Shown here in pieces: positions 35,801-64,000 of a stretch of 64,000 nucleotides of DNA (its first letter is position 1; every line of letters begins with the position of its first letter). A model generated the notes under the pieces. The model saw only the letters and a program-made list of their open reading frames with translations. It was not told the origin of the DNA and made no database searches. Source of the stretch: Aotearoamyces nothofagi (lineage: Eukaryota; Ascomycota; Leotiomycetes; Leotiales; Tympanidaceae); NCBI GenBank assembly GCA_015345905.1, contig JADDTR010000007.1, forward strand, positions 372,001 through 436,000, written 5' to 3'. A program made the translations under genes and the position numbers.

Positions 35801-36594
35801 ATGAGCAGCCTGAGCTTCTTGAGAAGCTAACGTTACTTAAATGGATTTTTGAGGCTAGGGAACAGCTTCATAGAGAACTATATGACCTATTGAGCGATAG
35901 AAATGACCGCTACAAGGACATGGTCATCATGCCTTATAGGTTGGCTGACAAGAAGGAGAAAATAGAAAATGCAGAGCGCTTTTTCGCTGACGACTCTCGC
36001 AAACGTCAAGTTGAATTTGACGAAAGCTCCTTGCAGCGCACTATCGACTTCATGGACATAATTGAAACAAACGTTGTTCGCGGCGTCGAAGTTCAACTCT
36101 CGGCGTTTTGGGACATCGCCCCTTCGCTTCGACAGCTTACGGAGAAAATCCCAAAATCATTAACTAGAGAATTTCAAATCCAAATACCGACGGCAGAATA
36201 TGAGGATAACACAGGATATTATGATTATCCCTTGCAATACTTGTATAGCTTACTTGATCACGGGCAAAAGAGTACGTATCAGTTTATTGAGAGCCAAATA
36301 AACCTGCTGTGTCTGCTCCATGAAGTCAAATTCGCGGTCACCCGTGCCAGGTACAGAGTTTCAGAAACCGAAATGATGGTAGCTGGAATTGGGCAGGATC
36401 GATCTGTCGAGCAAGGAAGGGCAGAAAAGGAAGCGGAAGAGAAGAAGTTGACAGATGATCTAAAGGAGAAGGTTAGATGTGTAGAGGAGCTTTGGGGGAG
36501 TGCCTTAGGGGAAGAATTTGAAGGCGTGAAAGGTCGCGTGAGAACATTCTTGAAGCAGGAGGGTGGATGGGAAGGTGTTGAAGATCAGCAGTAA
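32860..36594 (+). CDS. large uncharacterised Pro/Ser-rich protein with helical C-terminus
   Basis: Intronless 1,244-residue protein that I cannot assign to a named family. Residues 1 to about 545 are Pro/Ser/Thr/Arg-rich and probably disordered, with a polyproline stretch MPLPPPPPGPPPAP that could bind SH3 or profilin-like partners. A charged helical segment follows at about 550-610 (RLFADFIVLESRLRRERYAS, then ELLELTRDLFRPY). A second disordered linker comes next. From about residue 828 the protein is helical and acidic/basic mixed, ending in a coiled-coil-like tail (KEAEEKKLTDDLKEKVR). There is no signal peptide or membrane segment. It converges on ega3, with 347 bp between stops. The start MNGLLDASQRRRQG is the first ATG of the frame. 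Confidence 0.8.
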   Translation: MNGLLDASQRRRQGLNPLTTSLNQTPPSQQQTPSSAAGLSSPFSPHPGPYTPISAVRQYNPQQWGGPSIAASETRYSSGGFEAIDSVLNCPPSTRDLTCSDTDYPAAAPAPPPYSPPRSQRQVEEPISAISAHNRIAPAPAHRPSPEPPTNQVFPPPPGARPRGSSRDRPRDLFNLGGVFARKSSTSTTAEPSRLSPETGRDHATPSRRPLQISVEAPQVEEYDVVDNRPPAARRAASTGAIDTPTSSHSRGSSVTRWEPGMPLPPPPPGPPPAPSSRSQSMTRTPPEPVAFPPSRRSLAVSSLGPVPPTPAGWVDEDLLPRTVTGRGRSPNSGLHIDTSSISSSTVPESNSGSSSSGLTRAGAVRGEPKSIRERRSESRTGRTAPLEEPSNNPWAESITPSDIVVPATVLGRRPTITKSTPRSGRSSHAADTPNSSKTTGHSTPKLTVDLPESRGSTPRPASSSHKLEAPTPPFSPNQSNQSYSNSSPMIPPKSLPTPPPQSRRSGSSPRPTSLPRTPNNDTDIPTPLSQGRPSSRQSILNQPRVEDFASGAIQRHEIFVRKEAAAATDEERVRLFADFIVLESRLRRERYASAIDAMGSELLELTRDLFRPYATSKRSSINSFSSERSSKLAESKPTRGTVLPALQTGPHSDSTPSSASMLPSPAQARPDSTFWSGYMPSLSPIPSMSASIVPDEDSSRGRPSSRWWEVGQSGSGGSPTTATKLERSKRESKYMGMPRELRESLQYESEGQPSPMQNTLYGASSGPSTQALYGPNEYPAEKVGWHEERQISPPSGKTPTGASMSYSPAPITPNPKHLDVSRLVTLPPPYPRHHPAVNNNHPDLTAIRTTVRALSDFAEVQDIKELFKITTLKTCELANAAASRRRNSLHVNIQQKLESSEITYADAAKIEAEFKISEEETTKSDSKASFDLFQTSVVAPINDLLMERVNRATALFEQLRSQLFVDAQQQDPNMTAEEGDEQPELLEKLTLLKWIFEAREQLHRELYDLLSDRNDRYKDMVIMPYRLADKKEKIENAERFFADDSRKRQVEFDESSLQRTIDFMDIIETNVVRGVEVQLSAFWDIAPSLRQLTEKIPKSLTREFQIQIPTAEYEDNTGYYDYPLQYLYSLLDHGQKSTYQFIESQINLLCLLHEVKFAVTRARYRVSETEMMVAGIGQDRSVEQGRAEKEAEEKKLTDDLKEKVRCVEELWGSALGEEFEGVKGRVRTFLKQEGGWEGVEDQQ

Positions 36595-36941: not shown

Positions 36942-38390
36942 TCAGTCGGAACCAAAATTAGGATCCCCAAATGGACACTCAGCCGACCATGCACTCAAGT
37001 CAGACCTCTTAATCAATGTTGAGAACCCATGCGTTCCATTCACTTTACAAGCCGCATCCAGCACGGCCAGACTGGAATTTGTTGCATACTCAATATGAAA
37101 TACCGCTTTTCCGGTCTCAATAAAAGGCTGAAAGGCCGCACACTCATCGTTCTCTGCACAGCTCTCATTGATCTCGAAGTCTACGGAACCGAGGGTATCA
37201 TTCACCAGGTCAGGTGAATTTTTCAACCCAATCGCCAGAGAGAGGTCGTGCGCTTCTGTGGCTAGAAACTTGATATAGTCTACGGCATCTGTCCGAGTCA
37301 AGGGGAAGCCCGTGATAGCACTCGTGGCAGCATACGAATCTACGTTATCGGGATCCACGGCATCGCAGCCCTTGGTCAGCGCGAGCTGGATCCGGGCAGA
37401 CATGATCTTCCGTACACTCTTAGTACGGGTGTCGAGATAGCGTTCGCCTTCCCCATCCGCAAGAGCGTTTCCAAGGGTGGCATTCTCGAACTGGTCGGCA
37501 TCAGAGCGCCAGTTCTCGTACGTGCCGGCCGAGAAATAGCAGATGACACGCCGATTCACGGCTTGTAGATTCGCAATGGTGGTTGCGTTGTTGTCGAACA
37601 GGTCGATGTCGTAGACGGAGGCGCGATAGGATATCGTTGTCACGGGCGTGGAGAGCTGGATCTGCCAGGTGTTGCCGACTCCAGGTCGCCAGGTCGGTGT
37701 CAGGCCGATTGAAGCTGAGTTGACCGTATCTTTCTTCCGGAGGCCAACGCCGAGACCGATGGCCAGGGCACTGATGAGGATCAAGGCGACGGAGGCGAGG
37801 ATGATTTGCCGTGTGGAAAAGCTGCGGTACCATTTTTGCTTGCGCTTTACCTTTATGTGTCTCAATATCGGCTCTTCATAGATGGACGATGGGCGTGAAA
37901 TTGCGGGTGATGGGGTATTGCTGAATCTGTCTCCTAGATAGCCGGGCAACAAGAAGGGTTCGCCATGTGAGGTCGATGCGGAGGATTGTGATCTAGAGCC
38001 TGGAGTGCTACTTCCCCGGAACATCCAGGAGAGCACGCTTAGCCTTCCTGTATCACTTTCTTGATCTAAACGCGGGGGTGTCGTAACAGGCTCTTCCAAA
38101 GATGACAGAGATGATAGCTGGTAGGAATTGGGTAAAAAGGGATTTCTCCGCAATGATGCCCTTCCTACAGATTCTTCGCGCGCATAGGCACTTCTACTGG
38201 CCAGGGTTGCTGTTCCAGGCTGTACAAACGAAGCAGTTGTGCCTACCACGGCCGGGTCTCCAATAGATGAGAAGGCAGCATCGTGTGGCGGCTGTGGTTC
38301 GGTATTCTTGGGAGATGGTGGTGAAGGATGTAAATTCCTGTGCACACGATTCTCGGCCTTCCGTAGAAGGGATTCGCCTTTTCCACTCAT
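36942..38390 (-). CDS. ega3: Ega3-like GH114 endo-alpha-1,4-galactosaminidase, membrane anchored
   Basis: A 482-residue type II membrane protein. A Ser/Pro-rich cytoplasmic part of about 195 residues ends in a basic stretch (KVKRKQKWYRSF), followed by one membrane segment (about 196-218, ILASVALILISALAIGL). The rest is a glycoside hydrolase family 114 domain, with the hallmarks WQIQLS, YDIDLFDN, VICYFSAGTYENWR, GCDAVDPDNVD and FEINESCAENDECAAF. In Aspergillus fumigatus, Ega3 cleaves de-N-acetylated galactosaminogalactan. Topology puts the catalytic domain outside the plasma membrane. It is the left gene of the cluster. An in-frame ATG at 38417 would add nine residues; the sequence does not decide between them. 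Confidence 0.88.
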   Translation of the reverse strand: MSGKGESLLRKAENRVHRNLHPSPPSPKNTEPQPPHDAAFSSIGDPAVVGTTASFVQPGTATLASRSAYAREESVGRASLRRNPFLPNSYQLSSLSSLEEPVTTPPRLDQESDTGRLSVLSWMFRGSSTPGSRSQSSASTSHGEPFLLPGYLGDRFSNTPSPAISRPSSIYEEPILRHIKVKRKQKWYRSFSTRQIILASVALILISALAIGLGVGLRKKDTVNSASIGLTPTWRPGVGNTWQIQLSTPVTTISYRASVYDIDLFDNNATTIANLQAVNRRVICYFSAGTYENWRSDADQFENATLGNALADGEGERYLDTRTKSVRKIMSARIQLALTKGCDAVDPDNVDSYAATSAITGFPLTRTDAVDYIKFLATEAHDLSLAIGLKNSPDLVNDTLGSVDFEINESCAENDECAAFQPFIETGKAVFHIEYATNSSLAVLDAACKVNGTHGFSTLIKRSDLSAWSAECPFGDPNFGSD

Positions 38391-39069
38391 GTAGCTTGCT
38401 CTCTCATTTTCCCTCAAAATTCTCTATTAATACAGCTGGATCCATTCTAGAACTCAACGGTCGACATCAAGCAATTGAACTTGGTCGTCGGTCGTCCCAG
38501 GAGGTTCACGGGAAGTCGCGGATGGCTTAAAAAAGCCGTTATTGTGGCTTATATCTACCATCATCTCGACCGCCATATTAGTCCGATTTTCGCATTCCCG
38601 CTAGATCTAGAGGATGACATATTATAGCCAGCTTCATCAGTGAAATAAATCCATTTCTCGGCTATAATTCCGGCAGGACATTTGCATCGCCGCAAATGGC
38701 ATTCTCAGTGTCACTAGAGTGCATTCCTGTCGATGTCGTAAGCTCTAGTGACATCCCGCCGCTGCTACGAGCTAACGCGAGTGGGACCAAGTTCCCCTAG
38801 CACGGCTGTGGCTGCCAAGACGTTGAGTGCCATAATTGGAAATCGTACAACACTTCTGCTATTTGGGAGCAGTTGGCAGAGTGGATGCCGGCATACCAAG
38901 GCTCGTTCTCTTTTGTCAGCGTACAGCAAAGCATGGGCTGGATGTATATTTGGCATAAATTTCTAAAGAATAATAATCAAGAAACTGATTTTAAATACTA
39001 TCAGCCTTTTTAGACATTAGAACGTGTGGATTCAAATAGATAGATAGTGCATAATTTAGCAGAAGTCCT
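38391..39069. promoter_or_regulatory. ega3 upstream region
   Basis: Contains a minus-strand match to the StuA/APSES consensus (TCGCGTTA, 38773-38780). No coding frame is supported. The far end is the 3' flank of agd3. Confidence 0.5.
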
Positions 39070-41528
39070 TCAACTCCCGTTCAATGATATCGGTGTTGTA
39101 AGATTAAATGTGATCGGCGAGCCATCCATCGGCACCCATAATGTCATTGGATCTGTTCCAACTTGCTCAACTCTCACGCCCTGAGTATCCGCCACTGCTG
39201 ATGGAATAGTGACCGGTAATGGAACTTCGCAGCTATTATTATTGCTTGACATTACTGTGAAGCCGGTAATTGAGCCGTTGCTTGTGATATATTGAATCAC
39301 TGGATGGCAACCGTCTCGTAACATGCGCTGGTTGAAACTCATCGCAACCTGCACAAGCATTAGCTGGGAAACTTCCACGGGCCAAAAGGTAGTAGTGGAA
39401 GGCTTACATGGTCGTGCTTCAGCGTAATGATAGGCCAATCAACAAATTTCATTATCTCATTGGTAATATTTTCAACCCACATCTGAATTAATGATAACTG
39501 CTGCAGTTTGCCATTTGTCATTCGCGATTCGACATCTGTTTGGCGAAGATTTGGCTGATGGAACATATATGGCTCTATATAATCTTTAGTTTGATGCTTG
39601 AAATGATCGAATCAACTCACCATGGAAAAGTGACAATATTTGGTTGCCTACTGTGGCACGCTCGAGCTGGAGAAGCGTGTCAAATGTTCCTCCTTGTGTA
39701 CCGCCCTCGGTGTCAATCCATTGAGTGACATCGCAGTCCACCTCAGCACTAAATATGGTTAGCTGTTCCTGCAGCTGTCTTGTAAATGTACTTACCAGTT
39801 ATAATAGATACGCGTAGCAAACCGGGGAGTAATCTGATAACCGGCATAGCCATTTAGCTCTGTCGTCGTTAATTTTGGCCAGTGAAGGTGATCCTGCCAT
39901 TCAATTAGCATCCAGTGCAACCTGATGTCGTCAATCCAATATTCATACAAGATTTCGGAGTTCGGATCGAGTGTTGTCCCCAATAGCGTTCCACAATCCA
40001 TTATCAGACCATGCTCTAATTGCGTCCCCATTGTGTACCCCTACGTTCTAGGTGTAAGTGGAGAGAAAATCTAGGGGAAGAAGCAGTATCTTTTTTATAC
40101 CTGTGATGCCTGGTGGAATGAGACCACTGCCGCTGAACCGGGCAGCGTTGGTAAAATTCATCATTTCCGCATACATGAGATTGAACTGAATCTCTAGCAG
40201 TGCATCGTGGTAGGTTGCATTGTTGAGTTCAAGATGTGTAAAAGTATGAGAAACAAGACCAAAAGAGTCTCGGTTAGTTATATTCTCAAAAAAGACGACC
40301 AGTGGGTCAAGAAACATGCAATCGGAAGTCCATGAATATGTGGGATGCTTTGGCCATAGATTTATACCTGTGCCGAGCGGTTTGATATATTCTAGCTCCG
40401 TCGCTTCATCCCAAGTTGTAAAGATGGGCGACTCGCATGTGAACTGGGTGATGTTTGCTGCCGCTGTCTGGACGTAAATAAGGTTGCCATTCGAGTTGAA
40501 TCCAAACTCTATGAAATAAGTGCTCCCATTGTTAAGTCTCGTGTTGATATCATATGTCCAATCTACGTGGGATTCAAGGTCTGCTGCCCGCAGTCGAAAG
40601 ATCTCTCCTGTGGAGTATATGGAAGTCTGTAAGAGCAGATCGTCAACTGGAAAACAGTCAGTAACAAGTCATATAGGTAGAGACGATCGGATTATGTTTC
40701 TTACCTTGTGTTTCAAGGTGGATTCTTCTAAATCCTGGATAGAGGCCACGATAGCCCCATTGCAACCAGGCATGATTAATGTAAGTGCCAGTAGTACTCC
40801 AATTTCCTGTGCCGATAAAAGTAGCAATCTGTTCTCGGCCATTCGCGAACTGGTTAATAACACCCGCCACAGTTATATCGGAAAACTGATCATTGGGTTG
40901 AAAGTTGACGAATGCCGTAGTCGTGGAGGCATTTGCTTCAACAATAGAAGCTGGATAATGAAACAAGCCGAGCGTTGAGAGATTCCCCTGTCTAAATAAC
41001 ACAAGTGTTAGTAGGTGTCAAGATAAGTTCCGTGAAAAGATGCAAGCCTCACCTCAAACCAGCAGTAGAGAAGTATTCCGTTTGAACACTATCAATAAGA
41101 GTGAGGTTTTGCTCCTGAGTAGAATTGCAGCAACTGCCATTACTTTGAACACCAAATTCTATAGCATCAGGAACAACATTAGGCTGTACCATCCGTACTC
41201 CATACTTCACCTGGTAAGCATATAACGTATTCCATTGGTCTGTCGTAAGACGTGATACGCCGTTAGATGATGCCCTGTTGTTAACGATGAATAGACCGTA
41301 ATTTCCTCCATTAGACTTCTCGAGAGCAGGGAGATCTGTCCCTCCATCTAGGACTTCCAATGTTTCAAAATTAATACCGTATCCATCAAGCAGATACCAC
41401 ACTTCGTTCAGCTTATCGTTGTCGGCAGCAATCACCAATGCGGTTGAGTTGAAGTATAGACAGTCCGAGAGAGCAACAAGGTAGCAAAGCAGTAACAGCC
41501 AGACCGCCGCAAAACTTTGAGCTAGCAT
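39070..41528 (-). CDS. agd3: Agd3-like galactosaminogalactan deacetylase, secreted
   Basis: A 690-residue protein in eight exons: 41053-41528, 40705-40991, 40101-40646, 40040-40101 side continuing 39949-40040, 39796-39893, 39621-39748, 39408-39574 and 39070-39348 (the fourth exon is 39949-40040). The N-terminus is a signal peptide (hydrophobic AAVWLLLLCYLVALS). Family landmarks in order: GVRMVQPNV, LGLFHYPAS, the catalytic-core VDDLLLQ, EYIKPLGTGINLWPKHP, the metal-binding HTFTHLELNNATY, PGITGVHNGDAIRAW, YQITPRFATRIYYNC, PYMFHQPNL and DWPIITLKHDH. These match Agd3 of A. fumigatus, which removes acetyl groups from GalNAc residues at the cell surface so the polymer becomes cationic and adhesive. 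All exon phases agree. Confidence 0.9.
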
Positions 41529-42282
41529 ACTAAAGTAGACGCCTGGTCTAGAAGATGCAAAATGTTATGCCTAGGTATGACACCTATACTTCTATAGACC
41601 CCTCGGGTGGCCAACGATATCGACCCGAAGTTGGACATAATATGGCAACATTGAAGAAGTCGGAAGAGTACAAAGAATGTAGCCAGAAGACCAGTGAGTA
41701 ATGGTGTTAAAGCCATCGTCATATTTATCGCCTGTAAACTACTCATCGCCGTTTCTGATCAGCGTACAATGCTAGCTCGATCTATCATAATATTAGCCGC
41801 ACAAAACCGAATTTGGGATCGGGAAGAATATGCGCTACCGGGGTGCACTATTTACAGCATAGATACCATTCGGAGGTGTTGCTTCTTATTCTTTCTATTG
41901 AGCAGCATCTGTTTGTAAAATTCCTTTACTGGAGAAAGAGGTTTTGGGTACAATTATGATCACGTGATGCAATGACTTAGTAGTGCTAGTAGGCATGCTA
42001 TTAAATGGCATTTTATTTAAAATTCTAGAGTTCTAAAATTATCATTAATAGTATTAAGGTATTTTTATATAATAACTAGTATTCTGTAATTTAACTGTAA
42101 TGTAATTCAGGGCTAGAATCGTGAGAAGGTATTTGGTAGTCAGCGATATGTCGTATGCGATTCTTTAAGTATTAGGTAGGATATGTATTGTTGCTAAATA
42201 CACTGATTTTCGAATCAATGAATGCCATTGAAAAATGGCGTATAATTCTGGAACGCCAGTAACAGAATGGTAGAACAACCCA
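41529..42282. promoter_or_regulatory. agd3 upstream region, AT-rich
   Basis: Between the agd3 start and the uge3 stop. It holds a palindromic TCACGTGA at 41960-41967, 432 bp upstream of agd3. It is strongly AT-rich from 41990 to 42110. No coding frame is supported. Confidence 0.5.
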
Positions 42283-44010
42283 TTAGAAGGATCCCACAGG
42301 CCGAACAGGAAAGTTATGATCCTTCCACTTCTTATCAAAGAGATCCCATTGGGGTGTTTTAATAGATAGTTCAGGACTATTATTAGGTGAGAAGGCTGAT
42401 GCCTCATCAGATAGGTCGTCTTTGATGCTCTCGCTTATCGTCTCGCTCATTGTGCTCAATCGGCGAAGCATATCACTAAAGCTTGCTGGCTCCATAGACA
42501 GGTTGGTAAAGCCTTCCATAATATCACCCAAAGTTGACCCTTTTCGTCCTTGCACAGGATTTTGAAGCAATCCTGCCGCGACGCTAGCTCGCCTTACAGC
42601 TCCAGGGTCGCGTGCTGCCAAAATCGACAACTTTCTCAGACGCTCATAACCAGCAGGGTTTTCGGTTGCGAAGGTATATACATCTCTGCACATGTCCTGT
42701 ATGCCAAATTCCGCCTGCCAACCAAGTTCTGTGGTAGCCTTTGTTGTACTAGCTGTAACAGTTCCAAGATCACCAGGCCGAGCATCAGATATCGCAAAAG
42801 GTATCTCAGTGCCTGCCGCAGCGGCGAATGCTTTGATGATATCCAGCACAGAATACCCTTGCCCAGTGCCAAGATTATACACTCTGTAATTTGCAGTTGA
42901 TGCTGGTTCTGGAGGTCCAACAGCCAAGGGTTGCAATGATTGTCTACGGCTCTTCGCCTCTTGCTTCGCTATTGGTGGTGACATCATCGACCGCAGTGCA
43001 GCAAGATGGCCGCGAGCAAGATCTTCAACGTGAATATAGTCGCGAACGCCTGTGCCGTCGGAGGTCTCGTAGTCTGATCCATACACATAGACCTTACTCC
43101 TTCGCCGCTGGTAAGCCTGAAGAATGACGGGTACAATGTTGTTTGGGATGCCTTTGGGATCCTCGCCAATCAGGCCGCTTGGATGCGACCCTGTTGGATT
43201 GAAATAACGGAGAGAAACGACCTCAAACTCGGGATCGGCGATACAGCAATCGTTTAGAATCTCTTCGGCCATCCATTTTGATCGACCATAAGGATTTGTC
43301 ACGAGTCCACCACCTGTGCCCTTTCCTCCAACCTGCACAGCATCTTCTGAAATATTGGCTTCTTTCCCAGTTCCATAGACAACTGCACTGCTCGAAAAGA
43401 CCAAGCGACTGACTTTGTGGGCAGCCATTGCATCGAGTAGATTAAGGAGACCTGAAATATTGTTTTGGTAATACTGCAGAGGCTGTGCAACCGACTCTCC
43501 AACCGCCTTGAGTGCGGCAAAGTGGATGACTGCAACGACTGACCCGGGCTTAATGTCAGCGGATTCGATGGCGAGTGATGCTGGCTGAGCAGAGATATCC
43601 AACTTGTATTCTCGCATTTTATATGAAGTTTTCGCAGCCAGATCACTGATATTTATCACGTCCAGTTCCTTTCCGAGTACCGGTATCGGTGGGCTTACTG
43701 ACTGCCATAATTGAAAGACATTGAGGACAGCTTGTCGATCACGAAGATCAGTAGTGTGGAAGAGAAGAGGAGGTACACTGTTAGTCATCCCAAGACGTTT
43801 ATATTCGGCCTTTGCAATATGGTACACTCTGATAAGTGATTCCATATGACTATTGACAAGGTTATCGATGACGATGACGGCACATCCTGACTTGAGAATC
43901 TCCAGTACTGTATGGGAACCGATGTAGCCGGATCCGCCTGTCACAAGAACAATAGGGAAAGACTTGACAAGGTCGCGCATGCCAACGAGAGAAGACGTAG
44001 TGGAAGGCAT
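42283..44010 (-). CDS. uge3: Uge3-like UDP-glucose/UDP-GlcNAc 4-epimerase
   Basis: Intronless 575-residue SDR-fold epimerase. The NAD-binding motif TGGSGYIG is at residues 24-31, and the catalytic serine region SSSAVVYG and NPYGRSK (YxxxK) follow. VIHFAALKAVGESV, LRYFNPTGSHPSGLIGEDPKG, DGTGVRDYIHVEDLA and YNLGTGQGYSVLDI are classical GalE signatures. In A. fumigatus, Uge3 makes both UDP-Gal and UDP-GalNAc for galactosaminogalactan. Two features differ from plain GalE: an insertion of roughly 60 residues before VIHFAALK, and a C-terminal extension of about 100 residues rich in Ser/Asp. It shares a promoter region with gtb3, transcribed the other way. Confidence 0.9.
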   Translation of the reverse strand: MPSTTSSLVGMRDLVKSFPIVLVTGGSGYIGSHTVLEILKSGCAVIVIDNLVNSHMESLIRVYHIAKAEYKRLGMTNSVPPLLFHTTDLRDRQAVLNVFQLWQSVSPPIPVLGKELDVINISDLAAKTSYKMREYKLDISAQPASLAIESADIKPGSVVAVIHFAALKAVGESVAQPLQYYQNNISGLLNLLDAMAAHKVSRLVFSSSAVVYGTGKEANISEDAVQVGGKGTGGGLVTNPYGRSKWMAEEILNDCCIADPEFEVVSLRYFNPTGSHPSGLIGEDPKGIPNNIVPVILQAYQRRRSKVYVYGSDYETSDGTGVRDYIHVEDLARGHLAALRSMMSPPIAKQEAKSRRQSLQPLAVGPPEPASTANYRVYNLGTGQGYSVLDIIKAFAAAAGTEIPFAISDARPGDLGTVTASTTKATTELGWQAEFGIQDMCRDVYTFATENPAGYERLRKLSILAARDPGAVRRASVAAGLLQNPVQGRKGSTLGDIMEGFTNLSMEPASFSDMLRRLSTMSETISESIKDDLSDEASAFSPNNSPELSIKTPQWDLFDKKWKDHNFPVRPVGSF

Positions 44011-44110
44011 GTTGAATTGAGGTTATAGGATGTTGTTGGCGGGAAAAAGGCGTAACTCTGACCCAAGGGATCAAAACCATGGAAAGGAATGCTTTCTGTC
44101 TCATGCCTAC

Positions 44111-44137
44111 TTATACGTCTTATACGTCTTATACGTC
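44111..44137. repeat. TTATACGTC x3 in uge3 promoter
   Basis: Three perfect contiguous copies of the 9-mer TTATACGTC, about 100-125 bp upstream of the uge3 ATG. Each contains TACGTC, and the last continues to TACGTCAT, a half-site-like element for bZIP proteins. Function is inferred only. Confidence 0.85.
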
Positions 44138-44915
44138 ATGAGACGAATATCCGTGTACCAGACCTAATCCGCTAGTAACGACCACTGGATCGATATAATA
44201 CCTACGCTGGCACAGCATTTGGCCTGCATTGGGAAGTATATGGGGAAGCACATGGGGAAGCACAATACCATACCTATCGCAGTATTGTTGCATTAGGAAG
44301 AAAATATCTGTTTAGTGGTTGAGAAGGACGGCGAGTCATGGCTATGAGCCTGCATACTGACGAAGGTGGAGGAGCTTCCGCTGAAGACTCATGCTATGGG
44401 AGGACCTCATGCTATGGGAAGACAGGTGATTGGGACTGCATTCAACTTAGCTCCCAGACTGAGGCACCGGAGAGCGAAGACAGAAAAGAACGGGCCACTA
44501 AAAGAACTGAAGAACATACGTGAGATGACAATAAAAATGGCATCGACATGGATGGATGTGTTCGGTACTGGCTTGTATACAGAGAGCTACACGCTCCAAG
44601 GCCTGCTCTCTCGGCGCATTACGTGATAGCGACCAGCTGCTTGAGTGTGTAACGTGTAGTATGAGATAGAGGGAGACTTGGGCGGCGTAAAAGATGCTCC
44701 TTACGGCGGGTGTTCCTTCTTGCGCTTTGCGACAATCGATGGATGCGGCGGCAATCCGCAGCAGGATGTAGTTAACCTTTAGCTTCAGCCCTTTGGAATG
44801 TGGTCTAAGTATTTAAGGCACGGCCTAACCGCATGCGTCCACAGTTACCCTCAACTATCAAGCCATCGACATTCCACTGAAATCACGGGAATTATCTGCC
44901 TGAATCTACGCCGCG

Positions 44916-44931
44916 TCGCGTTATCGCGTCA
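44916..44931 (+). promoter_or_regulatory. tandem StuA/APSES-type binding sites
   Basis: TCGCGTTA (44916-44923) is followed directly by TCGCGTCA (44924-44931). Both match the StuA response element (A/T)CGCG(T/A)N(A/C). They lie about 205-220 bp upstream of the gtb3 ATG and about 910 bp upstream of uge3. StuA is a known regulator of galactosaminogalactan synthesis in A. fumigatus. Confidence 0.55.
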
Positions 44932-45134
44932 GAGAGCAATAATGCAGAAGATGCTGTCTGGGAGCAACAGGCCTCTGAAACTGACCACATCCTTCGAGGA
45001 CGACCACCACCACAAGCTTGTGTGTGTCTTCCTTGACATCCTGAAGATGAGCTCTAGAGGGTTATGCTTCCAGTGTGGCTTCTTTAAATAACATCGATGA
45101 TAAACAACATATCTTTTTGATTTCTTCTTGCGAG

Positions 45135-48100
45135 ATGGCTTCTTTTTTTCAACCTGCTGTCTACGATCCCGAAGCTGTCACACTTACAGGCAACACTACA
45201 GCCAGGTTCCAAGTTTACACAAACAATATTCTAGACCATAATACACTTCTGAATACCTGGTATCAAATTGTCACTCTGAGCATCGGTGCGGCATTTTTCA
45301 CTATCCCTCTATTGAAATGGCTCATTGCGTGGATTATATCATCCCTACATTCAAGAAAGGCAAAGAAACGACAGAGCCAGGCTGGTCTGCTAGGATCCTA
45401 CAAACCTACAGCCGCGGTTCTTACAGAACCCTCTGGAAGATCTACAGAAGGTCAATCGCGTGCGCCGGTCACCAGTTTTGCTCTGTTTCTTGGCGGCGAC
45501 GTTGAGGAATTTATAAATCTCAACTATGACCTCCATATAATAGACTTGGATGTTTTCAATACTTCAAGTGGGAGTTCAGACCCTCAAAACCCAGAAAATT
45601 TCTCAGATGCCGATGGAGGACTTAAGTCAGAAAAGCCATCTAAAGCCACTTATTTCGAAAATAGCAAAAAGAATGTATGGGGCTTGGTTGGAGAATCTGA
45701 ATGTGGTGTCGAATCTTTTGCTCAATCGCCAGTCCTTGAGATTGTTGATAGACTAAAGGCTGTTGCTGGGTCACGGCACTTATCTGGTCTAGTCATCCCA
45801 TCAAATATTGGAGTAGAGTCAAAACTCAATCACGTCTTTGAGAATCTTGCTCATATAGGGGTGTGCATCATTCTTTTGGATGATGCTGATGAGCCGTCCA
45901 AGACAATATATCCAGATAATTTATGTGGTGTAATTTACAAAAATGCTTGCATTTTACCGAATGGATTCCGTCGAGATTTCTTCCAGGCATCGAAACTACG
46001 AACAAGCCTATCTAATTACGGCAGAGTGCGTCAAAGAGATCCAAACTTTTTCGTTGGGTTCCTCGATCTCTGGACTACTAAGCCACTTCCTTCTGTTATC
46101 CGCCGTAGCTTCAAAATAGCCAAGTTCCAGGATGCGGTACTACAACACGAGGCTGCAGGGTCTGGAAGACATCTTGGAAATGAGAGGTCCCGAGGGAACT
46201 GCATGAGCGCGTTTGACTGGCTCAAGCGCCAAGATATGATAGAGGTCTATACTCTACTAGTCCTGTAAAATTATCCTTAATGACTGACAGATTTGTAGGC
46301 ACAAAAGACGCCTTTGGGTGCTGCTTCTTCAGCAGGGCTAGCATCGCTAGTATCGACCCTCCATGATGAGAAATGTCAACCAGCTAGAGCTGAGTTTGAT
46401 TTCACTACTCTGGAACTTCTACTACCAGGTATTACTACAGCTTTTCTACCAGTCCAAGTGGCAGAGGAGATCTCTGAAACTCACCACGAGCTGGGGGAAC
46501 CACCGTCATACATTAGCCAAGCCCCTCCCAGGAATGACATTTGGACGATGTCTAGTCAAGGCCAGCGGCTCTGTGAAAGCGGTTGCTATGACCTACGAGA
46601 GGAGCTTTTTGATGAACAATATCTAGCAATCCTTGAGACACAAGAACATCTAAAAGTTCTTGGGATGCTCGAGCCCGCAACTACGGTTTATGTAGACCGT
46701 ATCTGTGATGCAATCAATAAATTACAACAATCCATGCATCATACGAACAATCTACTTGTCGATCTTTTAGATGGCATTTCTTTAGGGAGTATAAAAATCT
46801 TCCGGGGTCTTGATAGCGGATTCTGTCTTCCTGATAGTAGGGGTCATTTCTGGGCTGTATCACGAGAAGATGCCACGGGAGAATTATCTATTTTCACCTC
46901 TTTAAAGACGCCAGATTTTGTCACTACTGTTGTTCACGCGTACCTGGCTCATCGCGGCGTCGGAAGGAGGAATCGCATTGAAATTGAAATGACCTTGTTG
47001 CAGAATTCTAATCAACAAGCCATTTTACACCCTCGAATCACTCACGAACTTCGATCCGCAACCTATTCGGAACTACTTCATATCATTGAACAGATAACGG
47101 TGTCCGCGTCAGACGATCGGTTACTCCGCATGATGGAAGCTGAATGTGAGAGGTTACTGATACAAGAAGCTACCGATCGTTCATGGAACAAAGTACATTC
47201 ACACGACTTCTTATCTAAGAAGGTGACCATAGAAAGTGTCTTGAAGGCTAGACTTGCCTACTTTGCTAGGCGTGGCTCTCTGCATTTGCCAAGCCTGGTT
47301 CAACTGAGTCAGCTCTATAGCCAGATCGATGATGCTATTGTGGCTGCTTTATATGAGAATGACGAGAAACATCTCTTGCTTCTGTCTTCCCCACTAGTCT
47401 TGGACACTACGATCCAGAAGTATGAATATACTGAGAATGAAGATTTATACAGGCTGCTATTTTTCTGCTCATTACGAAGACGAGCCTTCGAAGAGGTTTT
47501 CATGGAGACTACCGATAGATGTCCCCTTTTCTTGCAACAACAGGATCAGGCGGCTGTCTTTGCGGAACTATGGGTTCTTGGATCACAATGTGAGATATAT
47601 TTTGGAATAAAGCCTCGTGCCCTGGGCGCAATTATCTACGATGAGTACAGAATATATTTAAAAACCCACGAACCAACAACGGAAGCTTGGAATGGCACAG
47701 ACTTATTCACTGCATATCATAAGGTAAAGGGCGACGATGACAAGCAGATATCTATTGGCACCGACACAAAAGAGAATCCGACAGCACCTTTGTCTTTCTC
47801 TGTAAGACTAGGCAAAGCCGCCTTTTTGACGATCTTTTGTGTCCCCGCCATCGTTGACGTTGGTCTCCTAACGTTTCTTGGGCGAGGCTTGTATCTAACT
47901 GCCTTCATGACACTTGAGGAAAGAGTCATGGCAAATTATGCAATTCTTACCTCACTTCTTCTAACTGCTGGCGTTACTGGGTGGTCAGGAGGCACGGGAG
48001 GGTTCTACCTTCACCAGTCTGCATTTCATAATATGAATCACTTTATGGTCCAGCGTTTTGCTGGTGGCTTCGTCCTCTCGGCAATTACTAGCTTCTGTGG

Positions 48101-51100
48101 GTTTTTCGCCTTTGGACGACAATATGGTTGGTATGCTGGTGTTCTATTCGCGGCTTATTTAATGGCCATTTCGACCTTTCTCAATCTTTTAGGGATTTTG
48201 GCGACAATGCACCTAGAGGGCTCGCCCTTCAGATCCGGGCGAACTGTGTTGACAAAATGCATGTTGATTACGCTTCTCTCTCCGATCATATCATCATTCG
48301 TTAACGGCCACGATGTTCCCATATACCTCCCTATCATATACCTCTTTCTGACAGTACTGGTCATTAGTTATGCACGCTTGTGCTATGAATGGTCGTATTG
48401 GACAAAGAAGGTTCACATAGTCAAAGAAGATGATATCATATTATGGTATAGCAAAAAGATTAGCGAAAACGCAGGCGACTCTCCCGAGAGACCGACTATG
48501 GAGGTACTACCTATAAAATTAAATCTAGAGTTGGCGAGGGCCTGCCTCATGGAAGCTATAGAGCAACACAACCGGCAAGAATCATCGTGGTTCAGGAGAC
48601 TGTCGAAATCTGATCCGGTCGACCCTTTTGTGCAGAAGCTTGCAGATGGACACAAGTATGTCATCTGGTTACTTGTAAAAGAAAGCAATGGACAGTCTCT
48701 TCCGTCTCCATATAGCTCCACGTGGTTAGTACAGACAAAGCTGGCCTTGGCCAACCAATTACAGTTAAACAAGGGACTCAAGGAACATAGCCCGTTCCTG
48801 CTCTATCGCAACTCAAAATACGGGATAGCCCAAAACGTTGGACTGTTTCTGGTAGTACTTATGGATCGCTGGGTTGCGATATCTATGAGCGCAAACGGGC
48901 ATATCATCAACCTGTATTATACCACTCGTGCCCGATACGGTCTTGCTTTTGGATTATTTTACTTTTTAGCATGTGCTATCAGTCTCGACATCGTTCTTAG
49001 CCGATATTGGGGAAAGACTGGACGCAGATCAAAAAAGAAACTGGCAAATATCCTTGATTTCGAAACTACGGAAGAAGCTGAGAGCGGCATGGAGAAGAAG
49101 CGCTGGTTGGGTGCTATTTCAGAGCTTATCTGCCTGATGTGCTGCTTCTTCGGACTACTAACTCTTCTGCTGTGGCTTTTCGTCAGCGAGGGTGATCAAC
49201 TCATCCTCTTCTTTGCGTATGTTATTGGTTACTCTGGGGTTATCATTTTTCAGGTATGCGTTCAGTCATTCCCTAATAGCATTGCGATTGTTCTAACCTA
49301 TAGACAAGTTCAACCGAGTCTTTACCACAGATCTCAAGCTTCACGTGCAAATCGTCTTAATAGCAGCGTTTGGAGGCTATGTGTTAGGAGTAATACTACG
49401 TGAGCCATCTCAATTCGCTGGTTGTCACTACCTAACAGTTATTACAGATGAGATCCCCGCAACGCAAGATTTTTTCTTCATTGATGTTATCGCGCTATGT
49501 AGCGCGTCTCTGTCTGCATCAATTGGCACCTGGCTTGTCACCGACTTTTGTGACGACCCTGCGCAGGATATTCATATTGAAAATGAAGATCTTGTTAACT
49601 GGAAAGTGTATTCACAAAAGCTAATTGGTATAGCTAGTCGTCACTGCACATTAAAACCAGAACAACTGGATGGTGCAAAAGGCATAGAGTGCCACTTCAA
49701 TGACCAGTCGATTGTAAGTGAGGGTATAAAAGCGGTCTTTAAGGACGCCATCGACAATGACTCGTCTCCAATTCGTGCTGCTTTTCCAAAGGGAGAAGAG
49801 CTACTCGCATGCACTCTTAGAGTTTGGGAACATCAGCAACTACGATTGATCATTCTAGATAGGTTGGCTTTAGTGGCCTGTGGTGGTGCCGATGTCTTTG
49901 CTACAAGTACACGGATCGATGGCGACCTCGTCGTTTACGTTGGGATGCCGGCGTTTGACTGTTGGAAAAATCTTTCGGAAGAGGGCTATGAAAGTCTGTT
50001 GATACAGATTGCCTCTGAATCATTATTACACGAATGCTGCGAAGGAATGCTACATTTGCGTCATTCAGATGCTACTCTTGCGGAACTCCTTCTGAATAAG
50101 GATTCCCATGTTTCAACACGCATGGCCATGCAACTGGCATGGTCCGATCAGGAAGAGCTCAATTCAATTATTGAAAAAACCAACAATGAGCTGCTCAATC
50201 ATCTAGCACTTGGCATAAATCTCAGTGTGGATTGGGAGAGTACTCCAGAAGATGTCCGCATGGCCGTGGTCTCGCGTGTAGTAGGTAGGACATATAACAA
50301 AAGTCGGGCACTAGAAGTATGGCTAGCTTCTCGATCATGTACCGTATTGCTTCATGACTGGTATATCAAGCAATGCCTTGCAATCCGCGAAGTTGCCCTC
50401 TCACGGGTGTTCATGGATGAACGTAGTGAGATCACCCTTCCTCCTTTCGGTCCTAGGGAGCACATCTGGAGCTCGAAAGAAGTCAGTCGTCATAAATTTA
50501 TACTTTCGCGGATAGCTGCTACAATCTACCAATTTACTTGTCTATTAATCGAATTTATTGCGATTGTTAGTACGGCTGGTACCGACTGTGGGAGGGAGCT
50601 GTGGTACGTACTTCGCAATAGTATTCTTCAGAAACCAGTTGTATGGGTTGTCCTCAAAATATGGAAAGTATGCTGGTGGATTAAACTTTTCTGGACCCGT
50701 CTTCTTCTCCTATCAATGGATAAGGACTACAAAAAATTTCACGAATGGATATTTCAAGGTTCACCACGAACGCTAAGCAATGGAATCCTGACGGTAAGAG
50801 ATCCTCGGTATCTCCGGACAGGATTTCTAAAAGAAAGTCCCAACGCCATTGAGCTCCTGTTGTTCGATGGCGTGCAGCCAACCCTCCCAGCCAAACGACA
50901 AGCACATCAAGTCCTAAGTTACGATGGATCAATGAGATTAACGCGACTGATAGACATCAAAGTAGCTCCCCTTGAAAGCGAGGAATATTATGACTACAAT
51001 TTCAACCCCAAAGGCAACCAGAAGTATCCAGAATCTAGAACTACAGAATGCGGTCTCCAAACAATTTCCGTATACTATGATGACAAGGGCCGAATTACAC

Positions 51101-53896
51101 ATGGCGAATGCATCAAGAATAACGTCCCACTCCAGTTTGTATATGTCTATAAAGAGCATTCGACTATAAACACACAAATCATAAAGGCGACCTATACTAC
51201 TATGGAAGGCGAAAATCCTTCCATATATTCTGTTTACTGGTGCCGAAAAACGGAATATGGTGATCGCGATGCACCGACCTGGCTCCCAACATCTAGGGTC
51301 CAGCGACTCATCCACGCCTCGGGCGACTCGGTCCAAGAAGTTACCTGGACATATGAACATAAAAGAGATCCTGTTATTACCACCATCACATTCTCTCGAG
51401 ATCATCGAAGTACGATAGAGGCAGAAACTTTGGATAAGTTCGATGATGTGCTTGGGATTTTAACAAAGCCGGAGTTGACGTCCTTCATAGACGAGGATAT
51501 GCTTTTCTATCACTCCAAATCCTTGATTAAACGGGAAGTAAACTCATATCCTTACGGAAAAGAAATAGATCCCGATACTAAACCGCAGCATTTATTATTT
51601 GCCAGACGTATTTTTGCGTGGTCTAGATTATCGAGAAAGAAAAAGTATGTTGCACGTCACATGCTATCCACTTCAGTCCTTCGAACCGCTTTATGGCAAG
51701 AGTGGACAACTCAAACAAATCTCAACGCTATTACAAGCTGCCTCTTGGATGAACTTATTTTGAGAAAGGAACCCACCCTTCGCAGATATTGGAGACTACG
51801 TGATGCTGGATACTTTGCCAAGGCAAAGTCTATTCTACTGGACAACATCGGGGGGGTTGCTGACTCGATAGAGATCACTGATGAGGTGTCTCAACGTGCC
51901 TATCTCGCAATCAAGCCTAGTGATCTTTTAGTTATGGGTCTCGGTAAAGATTCAAACTTTGTCACATCCAAACAAGAGGACTCTTATATTGATACCGATA
52001 ACCGGCTTGCAGTCATTTTCACAGATACAGGGTGCTGGCCTGATGCACCAGGAGGAGTCTCTAATTGTAGACGAGACTTGGTTGACAGACATACTACTAT
52101 TCGAAACTACGCAATCACAGAGGTTGCAAATGACTATGGTATTCCACGTTTCCAGATAGAAAGCCACTTACAACTTGTCAAATCCTTGCCTTTGTGGGGC
52201 TTAGATGGGAAAAGTCCGACCCATGGTTTATTCGACAATCTACTACAATTGCAGGTGGAGAATCGTATCCGAAGAACCAGAAAACGCCAAGATATCAAGC
52301 AAACCTTCATCCCGCTTCTAACCAGTATTGTTCGCGGAGCTCGGACAAAAAGGTTGTATGAGAAAGACCTTTCAATTGCGACAGATGACTTCTTAAACCT
52401 CAACAAATACTTTGAAGAGAATGACTACCTTACAACATGGCGTTCAAATTCTGTACGGAAAGCTTGGCGAGAAGCTTGGCTTTGCGAATACGATGATCCC
52501 AACATATCGGATCCAAATCATAATTTCCAAATTGAACGGCCAACTGCGGGTGACTTCGATGAAGCTTTAGAACTTTACATCAGTTACTTCTTCATATTCT
52601 CCGTTCGCGTGCCAGAGGATGTTCCGAGAGTATTCCAAAGCACTCATCATGGTATTTCCAGCCTATGGGGTATGATACTCAAGATCCGTAGGGGTACTAC
52701 CTGGGGTATATGGGATCATGCAATTATGTGGAGAGAAAGTTGTCTAAATATCAGTCCAGCGCAGTGCATATTACCAATTGCGGTACAGTCTATGTTGCTA
52801 GGTGCGATGAAATTGGCGTCGCATCTTGCTTATACCCACGCGGACATTATCCTTCCTTGTACCGCAATATATAATCCGTAAGTATTCATTACCTTTCAAT
52901 CTTAGCACATTACTGATTCTCTCTAGCACTTGGGAGACCGAAATAGGAAGTGATGAGGGACGAAGATGCTCTCAACAGCTGTTTCAAAGAAAGATCGATC
53001 CCATTACCAACGGAATTAGTAACATGGACGCTTTCAAAATAGTTGAGACGACACGAACGACAGAGCCTACCGTTATTATGTTATCGAATGTGCAGTTCAT
53101 CAAGGATATTAAGAATGCAATTCAGGCAGCGGGAGTCATTATAAACGATTTTGGGTTCAAGAAATATAATTTGGTGGTGTATGGGGCGCAAGATCGCCAG
53201 CCGTCCTATGCTATTGAGACAGAGGAAATGATTGCAAACCTAGGTATAGGGAAAACAGTAAAATTGGGAGGTTTTGGTTCTCCAAAGGAAGTTTTAAAGG
53301 ATGCTTGGCTCTTTATGAATTCCTCCCTTTCAGAAGGACTACCTTTAGCTATCGGCGAGGCAGCATTGTCGGGTATTCCCATTGTTGCCACAGAAGTCGG
53401 AGCTACTGCACAAGTTCTAATGGATATCGATGATCCAACTATATTATACGGCGAAGTTGTCCCCCCGAACGACCCAGTGGCACTCGCAAGAGCTCAGATC
53501 AGTCTCTTGGCTATGGTTGGCCCTTGGGCGCGATATACAACAGACGAAACACCACCGCCGCCCCTGCCTAATACCTTTACTCCGGAAGATGTTGAATGGC
53601 TTACTGAACGAATGTATTCCAAGGCACAGGATCGTAGAGGTTTAGGTATCAAGCTACGCGAGGTCATCTTGGCCAAATTCAGCGGCCACAGATATCTACG
53701 AGAGCACGAGCAGATGTACTGGGTTCAACGACATATGGCTGAACAGCGAGCTAGCGATAAACTTTCGCATCTGTCCTCGTCCCATCCAATTTTCGGACAG
53801 CCAACCTCACCCAAATTAGTCGAACGAGAGAAAGGCGAATCTATGTGGTCAGAACGGCGCTGGCAGGATTTCTCTGCAAAGCAACCAAAGAAATAA
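45135..53896 (+). CDS. gtb3: Gtb3-like giant membrane glycosyltransferase (GAG synthase)
   Basis: A 2,867-residue protein in four exons: 45135-46244, 46299-49253, 49309-52877 and 52927-53896. A first hydrophobic segment (about residues 41-71) is followed by a large soluble part. A multi-span membrane region comes at about 870-1420 (for example VPAIVDVGLLTFLGRGLYL and FNRVFTTDLKLHV after the second intron). The C-terminal part is a GT4-type glycosyltransferase: its N-lobe starts near residue 2259 with TDTGCWPDAPGGVSN, and the C-lobe carries the EX7E motif EGLPLAIGE (E2681, E2689). It should polymerise UDP-Gal and UDP-GalNAc and move the chain across the plasma membrane. The ATG at 45135 was preferred to one at 45075. 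Phases agree at all junctions. Confidence 0.88.
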
Positions 53897-54759
53897 TCGA
53901 ACCACGCAGAACATTTAGCCAGATAGAAATAATTCATTCATGATTCCAGCTTAGTGTATCTATGTCGTGACTGTTAGAGAAGTATCACCCGTCATGACAT
54001 ATGATACGAGTTAATTGGGGTATTTGGTGCCGACGCGGGACAAAAGGAAGTGGATACTTGGTTAAGCAGTAGTCTGCAATAGATTGATAAAAATCTCATG
54101 TCCGTACATTGGCTTAGTTATTGGTGAGGAGATTTTCGATTGAATCCGGCTCATTCCAAATGGATTATTAAGACTAAAAGATCGCCAAATCTTAGATCTT
54201 GCTTGTAGGGTTATCTACACCAGGGTTATCTGCAGGAAGATTATCTATAGTAGTCATACATTAAACGGGATTTCTGTTAACATTCACCACGTGACTCCCG
54301 GGTAGTTAGCGGGGAGCATCCAGGACACTTCACATTTTCGTGATTTTACATAGACTAGACATAATAATACATTCAATTCTTCAACAATTCCAACAATCTC
54401 AACAATTCAATCTTTAGACTCTGCCGGCGATTGAAGTTGAGGCTGAAGTGTCTCGGCTGCCATTTCTAGGAAGTAGCGGGTATTGATGCGCTAAACCCAC
54501 GCTAGGCCTAACTCGGGGTAGGAAGCTCGTCGGTGGCTCAGAATATAACGTCATTGGCCGTTTGCAGCCAGAATCTAGATTTGGGCTTATGGCAGAATCT
54601 CAAACTTCGGTAATGACGCGTTAAATACCGTACAATTCATTGATAGCAGGCAATTAGGGATCATCTTTGAAGGCTCTATCATCATCGTTATTTATCGAGC
54701 ATACGCGTCCGAAGTGATGCCATGGTACAGCTAGGTATAAGTACCTTTGAGGAATAATC
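53897..54759. promoter_or_regulatory. sph3 upstream region
   Basis: It holds CACGTGA at 54288-54294 and two APSES-type matches, ACGCGTTA (54616-54623) and ACGCGTCC (54703-54710), 50-145 bp upstream of the sph3 ATG. No coding frame is supported. Confidence 0.55.
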
Positions 54760-55638
54760 ATGGCTCACCTTAAAAGAAATCAAATTATATCACCAAAACC
54801 AACAATAGCATCATCGTCGTTGCTCAAGAAACCCTCCAAGCTTTCGAAATTCTTCTCTAAACTACCAAAATCTAAACTATCAACACCCAAGAAAGAGAAA
54901 ATGGTCAATTCTTCTTTTATCCTCGTGCCTCTGTACATATATCCAACCTTGCAGGCTTGGGACACTCTATTTGATAGCATCAGCAATAACCCCAATCTCA
55001 ACTTCGACATTATCATCAACCCTGACAGCGGACCAGGGAGCGATACATATCCCGACTCTGACTATGTCACCGGAATCGCCCAGCTAAACTCCTACTCCAA
55101 CACCCAACTGCAAGGTTACGTCCCTGTCTCGTGGGCAGCTCGCGCCCAAGCAGATGTTGAAGCAGACATATCGAAATACGCAGGCTGGGCAGAGTATGCA
55201 GACGCAGATATTCACCTGAGCGGCATCTTCTTTGATGAGGCGCCAAATGACTACTCCACTGCGAACTATGCGTATATGAGCACAGTTGCAACGGCAGTCA
55301 AAAGCGCATTCACATCCGTAACGCCTAAGATTATCACCAACCCCGGCACAGTCGTCGATGCTCGTTATTATGAAATTGCCGATACAATCAACGCGTTTGA
55401 GGACTACTATACCTCGTATTCTGCAAGCACATTGTCGTCGATCCCTGAAGCGCTGAGATCCAATTCGAGTATCATAATCCACAGCTTCACGGGCTCTGAG
55501 ACGGACCAGCAAAGTATTGTCGAAGCATTGGTTGCTGGAGGCATTGATGCTTTATATATTACGGATCAGAGCGATTACGATTCTTTTCCCACGCTTTTTA
55601 CCTCGTTGTGTTTGGAGATTAGCGCGGCTGAGCTCTGA
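54760..55638 (+). CDS. sph3: Sph3-like GH135 hydrolase (spherulin-4 family)
   Basis: Intronless 292-residue protein of the spherulin-4/GH135 family. The barrel starts at about residue 50 with SFILVPLYIYP and continues with FDIIINPDSGPG, the YVPVSWAAR strand, the acidic-site strand GIFFDEAPNDY, KIITNPGT, FEDYY and IIIHSFTG, ending ALYITDQSDYDS. In Aspergillus, Sph3 hydrolyses galactosaminogalactan and is needed for its production. The first 47 residues are Lys/Ser/Pro-rich with no hydrophobic stretch, so I see no signal peptide or anchor. An internal ATG at 54901 (MVNSSF) would give just the domain. A missed upstream exon with a signal sequence is possible. Confidence 0.85.
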   Translation: MAHLKRNQIISPKPTIASSSLLKKPSKLSKFFSKLPKSKLSTPKKEKMVNSSFILVPLYIYPTLQAWDTLFDSISNNPNLNFDIIINPDSGPGSDTYPDSDYVTGIAQLNSYSNTQLQGYVPVSWAARAQADVEADISKYAGWAEYADADIHLSGIFFDEAPNDYSTANYAYMSTVATAVKSAFTSVTPKIITNPGTVVDARYYEIADTINAFEDYYTSYSASTLSSIPEALRSNSSIIIHSFTGSETDQQSIVEALVAGGIDALYITDQSDYDSFPTLFTSLCLEISAAEL

Positions 55639-56788: not shown

Positions 56789-59155
<2,367 letters not shown>

Positions 59156-59925
59156 ATATGTTCACTCATTTATATATATATTATGCTAGATGAAAAGTTA
59201 GATGTGGGTTCTGGAGTATTCATGGTGGGGCTGCATTCACAGTTGTTACTTGGCTCTCTGTCAAAGACAGTAAGTAGTAAAGTAGCTGGGCAGATTTAAT
59301 CTAATATGGAAATTTACGGCGAATAAAAGAAATATAAAAATAGCTCAGGCAGATAAGAGAGATTATCTATAAAACGCCGAAGCTGTGCACAGCCAGGGTT
59401 CTTAAAAAATTCAATAAATCAAAGTTTTTTGATAATAATCATTGATTACATTGATTCGAGTTTGATTTGATTTTTGATCAGTTACACACTTTGTCATGTG
59501 ATCCAACATTCATACATATTAGGTCACATGACCCTAAAAAGGAAACGCATCTAACAGGTAGTTGAAAAGTAATTAATATTAAAAGAATATAAATAAATTA
59601 TTTTGGATTAGTAAATCATGTAATTTGTAAAACGATAAACTAACGTTTAAATATTTAATGTTCGTCATATTATTACTATATTATATAAATCATGTATTAT
59701 GATTTGTGAGTCATCATCTTAAAACAATGATGTAGAGTCTATGACTCTATAGGTATCATGAAGTAAATGCTCAAACTCCATCTCAGGCTCATAACCAAAA
59801 CGCCAATTTCCATTCCCAGGCTCAATTCTTTTACAAACGCCGAAACTTGAATGCTCCGTCCCTTTCTCCTTTATTAATATATCCTCGTACAACTTGGCAT
59901 CAGACTACAAAGTCCGTGTATATAA
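59156..59925. other. AT-rich convergent intergenic region
   Basis: 3' flanks of the GFA-family and receptor genes. Strongly AT-rich at 59280-59740, with repeated TCATGTGA/TCACATGA-like words near 59490-59530. No gene is supported. Confidence 0.5.
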
Positions 59926-63490: not shown

Positions 63491-64000
63491 TGCACGGCAA
63501 GTGAAGGCGAGTGTAGGAGTTAGATATCCTCACAATTGGCGAATTAAAGGGCACGCCTGGCGGGTTGACGACGTAGAGGAGGGCGTTGAGGCATCGAGCG
63601 GCTGCTTTCAGACTGATTGCTAGGAGGGGTTTTTACGACCCCCAGCCGCTGCGCAATAGTGGCATAGCACAGTCCTATCATCGTCGTGCGGGGCTAATCT
63701 CCGCTGCCTTTCTCGTTGCAAGCAGCCGCAAGCAGCCTTGAAGGCTTGAATACTGCAAGGCGATCCGAAGAGGCTAAGGTAGATAGCCTCGGTGAGGCCG
63801 CTTAGCGGAAGCCTAGCCCCTTCCTATCTTAAGCTTCGTCGGCGTCATTCTTGGCGTCTTTCAGATGTCTTCTAGATGTCTTCTAGATGTCTTCTAGATG
63901 TCTTCTAGATGTCTGCTAGATGTGCCAGTTCATGCCAACTTGTTGCGCTGGTTTTTAGCACGACTCAGTAGCAAAGGTCCTGGCGCTGATTATTCATGGA
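63491..64000. promoter_or_regulatory. RGS gene upstream region
   Basis: Presumed promoter of the RGS gene. It holds the 11-bp array at 63864-63918. No coding frame is supported. Confidence 0.5.
63864..63918. repeat. 11-bp tandem array, 5 units
   Basis: Four perfect copies of GATGTCTTCTA plus one variant (GATGTCTGCTA). Confidence 0.9.

Follow-up and report, generated by a model that had tools for sequence, protein, structure and literature searches.

A galactosaminogalactan gene cluster in Aotearoamyces nothofagi with an adjoining amidotransferase gene as its probable sixth member

The analyzed window, a 64,000-nucleotide stretch of the leotiomycete Aotearoamyces nothofagi (contig JADDTR010000007.1 of assembly GCA_015345905.1, positions 372,001 to 436,000), contains the five genes of the galactosaminogalactan (GAG) cluster, confirming what the initial annotation had observed. 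These genes, ega3, agd3, uge3, gtb3 and sph3, are intact and lie side by side, and they are followed by a gene for glutamine:fructose-6-phosphate amidotransferase (GFAT). The locus is read here as an intact GAG cluster with the GFAT gene as a probable sixth member, a reading to which we assign a probability of about 0.8. That it represents the GAG cluster of a filamentous ascomycete is very likely, and in this respect it is a further member of an already known type of cluster. The presence of GFAT as a cluster neighbor seems to be new. Pending RNA evidence, the Sph3 model also differs, in that it has no membrane anchor.

The gene models were built from six-frame open reading frames (ORFs) and Pfam matches, with the exons spliced by hand. 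Three genes occupy the minus strand: ega3 (36942-38390, one exon, 482 amino acids (aa)), agd3 (39070-41528, eight exons, 690 aa) and uge3 (42283-44010, one exon, 575 aa). On the plus strand, gtb3 (45135-53896) encodes a giant membrane glycosyltransferase of 2867 aa in four exons (45135-46244, 46299-49253, 49309-52877 and 52927-53896), and sph3 (54760-55638) encodes 292 aa in one exon. None of the five spliced models has an internal stop. Two in-frame options exist for intron 2 of gtb3, and the model uses the option whose donor site is better. The divergent genes uge3 and gtb3 stand back to back across an intergenic region at 44011-45134, to which no strand is assigned. The gaps within the ega3-sph3 block measure 679, 754, 1124 and 863 bp, and no stop-to-stop ORF of at least 120 aa lies wholly within any of the four, which leaves room for smaller genes. 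It is directly observed that these genes are present, intact and adjacent, and to which families they belong. The initial annotation had placed the five genes and their domains (GH114, Agd3-type deacetylase, GalE, GT4 and GH135) correctly in position and strand, and its account of a contiguous block with three genes running leftward and two rightward from the uge3/gtb3 gap also holds. It had further called the five-gene cluster complete. The five genes are indeed intact, but completeness may understate the locus: because a GFAT gene follows sph3, the cluster may exceed five genes.

Three of the proteins have solved GAG enzymes as their best matches in the PDB. Ega3, a GH114 endo-alpha-1,4-galactosaminidase (Pfam PF03537 Glyco_hydro_114, E-value (E) 7.9e-80), best matches 6oj1 (E 5.8e-65, 111/240 identical residues, 46%); the sister entry 6ojb scores the same, and the next sequence, 9ep6, follows at E 2e-32. 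The exons of agd3 encode an Agd3-type deacetylase with a CBM87 domain (CBM87_Agd3 1.2e-34, Agd3_CE 3.9e-62, Agd3_C 6.9e-27). The only PDB match of this protein is 6nwz, the carbohydrate deacetylase Agd3 (E 4e-180, 311/648 identical, 48%), relative to which the SHTFTH motif is retained, and its N-terminus resembles a signal peptide. Sph3 is a GH135 (spherulin-4) hydrolase (PF12138 Spherulin4, E 4.2e-72) matched in the PDB only by two spherulin-4 chains, 5c5g and 5d6t (the latter with E 2.3e-41 and 85/220 identical, 39%). Its acidic FFDE and FE motifs are intact and align with those of 5d6t. We take 6oj1, 6nwz and 5d6t to be A. fumigatus proteins. Ega3 shows a single hydrophobic span by hydropathy (aa 196-214), counted as its N-terminal membrane span, and is predicted to be a type II membrane protein. 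Its catalytic motifs DPDNVD and NE(S/Q)C align with 6oj1 and supply the Asp/Glu pair, Asp189 and Glu247 (PMC12054363) having been put on them by manual count. According to the same source, 5c5g is the Sph3 of A. clavatus (PMC12054363). A search for Agd3 in viral contigs gave no matches.

Uge3 is assigned at the level of GalE-type UDP-hexose 4-epimerases (UDP, uridine diphosphate) by its sequence matches (Pfam Epimerase E 1.8e-41; TIGR01179 galE 339 bits, against a cut-off of 262). It aligns with PDB GalE proteins in three blocks; compared with these solved proteins, it carries an insertion and is extended at the C-terminus. This C-terminal tail (42283-42640) reaches more than 100 residues past the best-matching solved GalE proteins. 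Gtb3 contains a GT4 domain (Pfam Glycos_transf_1, E 2.1e-16), and its spliced model has 15 hydrophobic stretches, of which two overlap. The putative orthology of Uge3 and Gtb3 to the GAG proteins is based on domain content together with neighborhood. The best PDB matches of Ega3, Agd3 and Sph3, the passing of the GalE cut-off by Uge3, and the giant size, GT4 domain and many hydrophobic stretches of Gtb3 support the interpretation as a GAG cluster put forward in the initial annotation.

Gtb3 is predicted to end in a PelF-like polymerase (DUF3492 plus GT4, 51700-53893), which scores under the curated PelF cut-off. The best NCBIfam match of its last exon is PelF (E 6.4e-24; runner-up 6.7e-14), and the joined C-terminal 636 residues also have PelF as best model (NF038011, E 1.7e-24), at 86.8 bits where the curated cut-off is 100. 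DUF3492 forms the N-terminal part of PelF. This family (PF11997) is found at 51700-52875 with 26.4 bits against a cut-off of 23.3, so that the DUF3492 plus GT4 architecture of PelF is present, while the whole exon-3 ORF reaches 22 bits, under the cut-off. Taken by itself, exon 3 matches no NCBIfam model, and its hhalign comparison with eight PelF proteins gave E 1.7e-4 at a probability of 50%. A tblastn search of 51700-52875 against plasmids returned two weak matches only (E 2), neither of them PelF. The last exon matches 99 records of the plasmid collection (E <=1e-3), with an annotated pelF in 13 of the 20 listed. The PelF-like assignment is further supported by the bacterial-genome pelF loci, 78 of 80 of which match Gtb3 (E <=1e-8); at E <=1e-3, all matching pieces fall within residues 2253-2792. 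For the other parts of Gtb3, the plasmid collection gave no matches (E <=1). Single exons gave hhalign probabilities below 1% in five comparisons (exon 2 against PelG, PelD and PelE, exon 1 against PelD, and exon 3 against PelG; profiles of 8 PelG, 4 PelD and 4 PelE sequences). AlphaFold modeling without an alignment gave two models with mean predicted local distance difference test scores of 41, too low to be usable, and 32.

The five GAG genes of A. fumigatus are regulated together, and Agd3 of this species removes acetyl groups from GAG (PMC4817252). More than 250 fungal genomes were surveyed for the five-gene cluster, which was reported in 28 of them and is syntenic in most (PMC4817252). 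The window shares with the A. fumigatus cluster (gtb3, agd3, ega3, sph3, uge3) the same five families in a contiguous block, and the best solved matches of Ega3, Agd3 and Sph3 are enzymes of that pathway. Unlike in A. fumigatus, the order is ega3-agd3-uge3-gtb3-sph3. The divergent pair is uge3/gtb3, whereas in A. fumigatus agd3 and gtb3 are oppositely oriented around a common SomA-bound region (PMC7667024), which bears out the differing gene order noted in the initial annotation. Metarhizium robertsii has five orthologous genes (MrAgd, MrEga, MrSph, MrUge and MrGtb) whose order and orientation likewise differ from A. fumigatus, an arrangement described as “mesosyntenic” (PMC8224951). GAG staining in Metarhizium is abolished without MrSph, MrUge or MrGtb (PMC8224951). 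In the passages covered, that paper names no GFAT for the M. robertsii cluster (PMC8224951).

The GFAT gene (56789-59155, plus strand, six exons, 694 aa) starts 1150 bp past sph3 and is the next gene on the same strand. It is complete, with a split Met-Cys start (MCGIFG after splicing) and a last intron of the GC-AG type. The product scores 584 bits with TIGR01135 glmS (cut-off 418) and matches human GFAT1 (6r4e) over its full length (E 1.3e-247). GFAT catalyzes the first step toward UDP-N-acetylglucosamine (UDP-GlcNAc), which Uge3 converts to UDP-N-acetylgalactosamine (UDP-GalNAc). We infer that GFAT may well be a working part that serves the cluster, a claim we hold somewhat above even odds. 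A more far-reaching version can be proposed only tentatively. In this version, the GAG cluster of some ascomycetes would comprise six genes, one of them a second GFAT dedicated to the cluster and sparing the UDP-GlcNAc needed for chitin synthesis, and some Paraburkholderia would have reached the same solution via galE and a second glmS in the Pel operon.

A feedback-resistant GFAT was also considered. Among the residues given as UDP-GlcNAc contacts of human GFAT-1 (PMC7000685), Arg343, Gly355, Thr458, Gly461 and His463 are kept, as is the neighboring Gly451 (human numbering). Thr447 is replaced by Val, which, as judged by eye, is also found in C. albicans. In the linker, His and Glu take the place of Gln307 and Gln310, as judged by eye against the human protein only. 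This idea was set aside.

The alternative that survives best is that the gene is an ordinary housekeeping Gfa1, lying by chance beside a standard five-gene GAG cluster. We consider it a serious contender, if below even odds. GFAT is well conserved, its isomerase domain being identical to C. albicans Gfa at 261/366 positions (71%) and to the human protein at 237/371. Several further observations favor this alternative or weigh against GFAT as a sixth member. The codon use of the gene is ordinary for the window. The five intergenic regions have no 12-mer in common, and the region upstream of GFAT shares none with the other four. It has one StuA-like site, about the background density. In A. fumigatus, GFAT lies elsewhere (Afu6g06340, whereas the GAG genes carry Afu3g tags; PMC10647056), and a strain without its GFAT gene requires glucosamine (PMC11907850). 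By these locus tags and this auxotrophy, A. fumigatus has neither the arrangement seen here nor a sufficient second copy. In bacteria, the pairing of glmS with pel is rare (1/80 genome loci and 1/8 plasmid loci), and one genome (G002) has a second full-length GlmS outside its Pel locus (L060), of which the 21.5 kb covered contain no glmS. The A. fumigatus facts and the GlmS copies of G002 slightly lowered our estimates for GFAT as a working part and as a dedicated copy. In addition, terms for the enzyme are lacking in the main text of the papers on the cluster considered here: “fructose-6-phosphate” is missing in PMC4817252, “amidotransferase” in PMC8224951 and “gfa” in PMC7667024.

Against a chance placement stands the improbability of such an adjacency. 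Assuming roughly 10,000 genes and one to two GFAT genes, a GFAT would adjoin a given cluster by chance in a few cases in 10,000, or in about 0.2% if any of about ten hexosamine-path genes is counted. Roughly estimated, a direct supply gene would lie beside the cluster by chance with a probability on the order of 0.1%. GFAT is also on the same strand as sph3, and galE and glmS are both found beside pel in two bacterial loci. Spare GFAT copies occur in moulds, as A. niger carries a second one, gfaB (PMC7761569). Among the matches listed for literature that pairs both topics, none mentions a GFAT as part of a GAG cluster. This is no proof of absence, since cluster neighbors in many fungi are drawn in Figure S5 of Lee 2016, which lies outside this coverage.

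Common promoter motifs were tried as evidence for the cluster and were too weak (no 12-mer, no SomA motif, few StuA-like sites). In the uge3/gtb3 region, TCGCGT occurs at 44916 and again right beside it at 44924, and the exact SomA motif is absent from the window. StuA-like sites, counted with what we take to be the StuA consensus, number three before uge3/gtb3, three before sph3, one before ega3, none before agd3 and one before GFAT, over a window background of 0.94 per kb; some of them overlap on both strands.

The bacterial comparison was based on 88 Pel loci. The 80 genome pelF loci are the best of at least 584 confirmed and therefore lean to relatives of the query. The plasmid loci are 8 of the 20 listed, among 99 matching records, taken with 8-kb flanks; 49 of the 88 loci are at least 21 kb long. 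On a Paraburkholderia graminis plasmid (L004), genes for a PF03537 hydrolase, GalE and GlmS come after pelD-E-F-G, in which pelE is assigned from its position. In P. domus (L064, 5577-10628), pelG, two PF03537 hydrolases, galE and glmS lie in a row. In these two loci, as in the window, a PelF-like domain, a galactosaminidase-type hydrolase, GalE and GlmS/GFAT are encoded in one block. The bacterial complex differs in having PelD, PelE, PelF and PelG as separate proteins, and the five comparisons of other Gtb3 parts showed no likeness to PelD, PelE or PelG. The P. domus genome (G001) has a second full-length GlmS on a contig other than that of L064. Among the eight genomes of Paraburkholderia and kin searched, two full-length GlmS proteins were found in G001 and G002. 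A second GlmS says little by itself, since G002 has two without a glmS in its Pel locus. At the frequencies given above, glmS beside pel was ruled out as a bacterial rule. GalE matches (with the L004 GalE as query, E <=1e-5) were obtained in 7/88 loci, L004 included, some being fragments at locus ends; a full-length galE occurs in two of the 80 genome loci, L064 and L088. In Gram-positive bacteria, galE and genes resembling the PelA hydrolase have already been described beside pel operons (PMC7112168).

Sph3-like matches are present within the flanks of 7/88 loci (E <=1e-5). In an Acidovorax Pel locus (L010, 13308-15516), two tandem ORFs after pelG were both confirmed as spherulin-4 (PF12138, E 4.7e-46 and 2.5e-50). 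L013 and L015 have two Sph3-like matches each. Window Ega3 matches none of the 80 genome loci at E <=1e-8 and 1/88 loci at 1e-5, and Agd3 matches none of the 80 at E <=1e-8. The label “GH114” proved too narrow for the extra Paraburkholderia hydrolase. In the four loci with both positions available (L010, L013, L015 and L016), the hydrolase matches lie about 9-10 kb before pelF, presumably the position expected for pelA, and the name PF03537 hydrolase is therefore used instead.

A polymer nearer to bacterial Pel than to GAG proper, that is, alpha-1,4-linked galactosamine/N-acetylgalactosamine (GalNAc) with little or no galactose, is unlikely. The PelF-like polymerase domain of Gtb3 would fit it, a dedicated hexosamine supply would favor a GalNAc-rich chain, and the GalNAc share is known to differ between Aspergillus species (PMC7329490). 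Against this, all five GAG families are present, and the best PDB matches of Ega3, Agd3 and Sph3 are solved GAG enzymes.

It is more improbable still that the cluster is partly defunct through an Sph3 that has lost its anchor and become cytosolic or inactive: the 292-aa model has no hydrophobic span by hydropathy, a point against an intact pathway, and the 863 bases upstream contain no plausible anchor exon in three-frame translation (by eye), but the GH135 domain and its motifs are intact, the other cluster genes are open, and a hidden exon or an unusual start is possible. The A. fumigatus Sph3, in contrast, is membrane-bound (PMC12054363).

For the intact GAG cluster with its GFAT gene, the reactions and the polymer product would be those known from the work on Aspergillus and Metarhizium. 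GFAT would take the first step toward UDP-GlcNAc, on which Uge3 acts, and housekeeping enzymes would complete the synthesis of this precursor. Uge3 would then provide UDP-GalNAc and UDP-galactose. On the cytosolic side, Gtb3 would polymerize these through its C-terminal GT4 domain of the PelF-like kind, and its membrane spans would export the chain. Sph3 and Ega3 would cleave acetylated and deacetylated stretches, and secreted Agd3 would remove acetyl groups, resulting in a cationic, sticky polymer.

The surroundings of the cluster were also surveyed. The first 7000 positions of the window (1-7000) have a guanine-cytosine (GC) fraction of 0.545-0.644, compared with 0.362-0.566 in the rest. An ORF with a cyclin domain lies at 5959-7254, and a NUP98-NUP96 nucleoporin gene with an autopeptidase domain extends over two long ORFs at 8771-14865 (minus strand). 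To the left of ega3, a stop-to-stop ORF of 1256 aa (32824-36594) belongs to no Pfam family. To the right of GFAT, pieces of a fungal rhodopsin-like membrane protein and an ORF with an RGS domain were found at 59926-63529. The AT-rich kilobase at 59001-60000 (GC 0.362) begins at the very end of GFAT and may mark the edge of a conserved block. Searches with Rfam (gathering thresholds) and ARAGORN gave no matches, and no striking repeats were seen around the cluster.

GAG and chitin draw on a common pool of UDP-GlcNAc. In A. fumigatus, the loss of uge3 leads to more GlcNAc in the wall (PMC7667024). If the proposed role is true, a GFAT encoded in the cluster would be a simple means of separating the GAG and chitin flows, giving a direct prediction for expression and flux. 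Lee 2016 asked if fungi acquired the cluster from bacteria or evolved it themselves (PMC4817252). The parts held in common with some Pel loci, namely the PelF-like domain, the galactosaminidase-type hydrolases, spherulin-4, GalE and GlmS, bear on this question of cluster origin.

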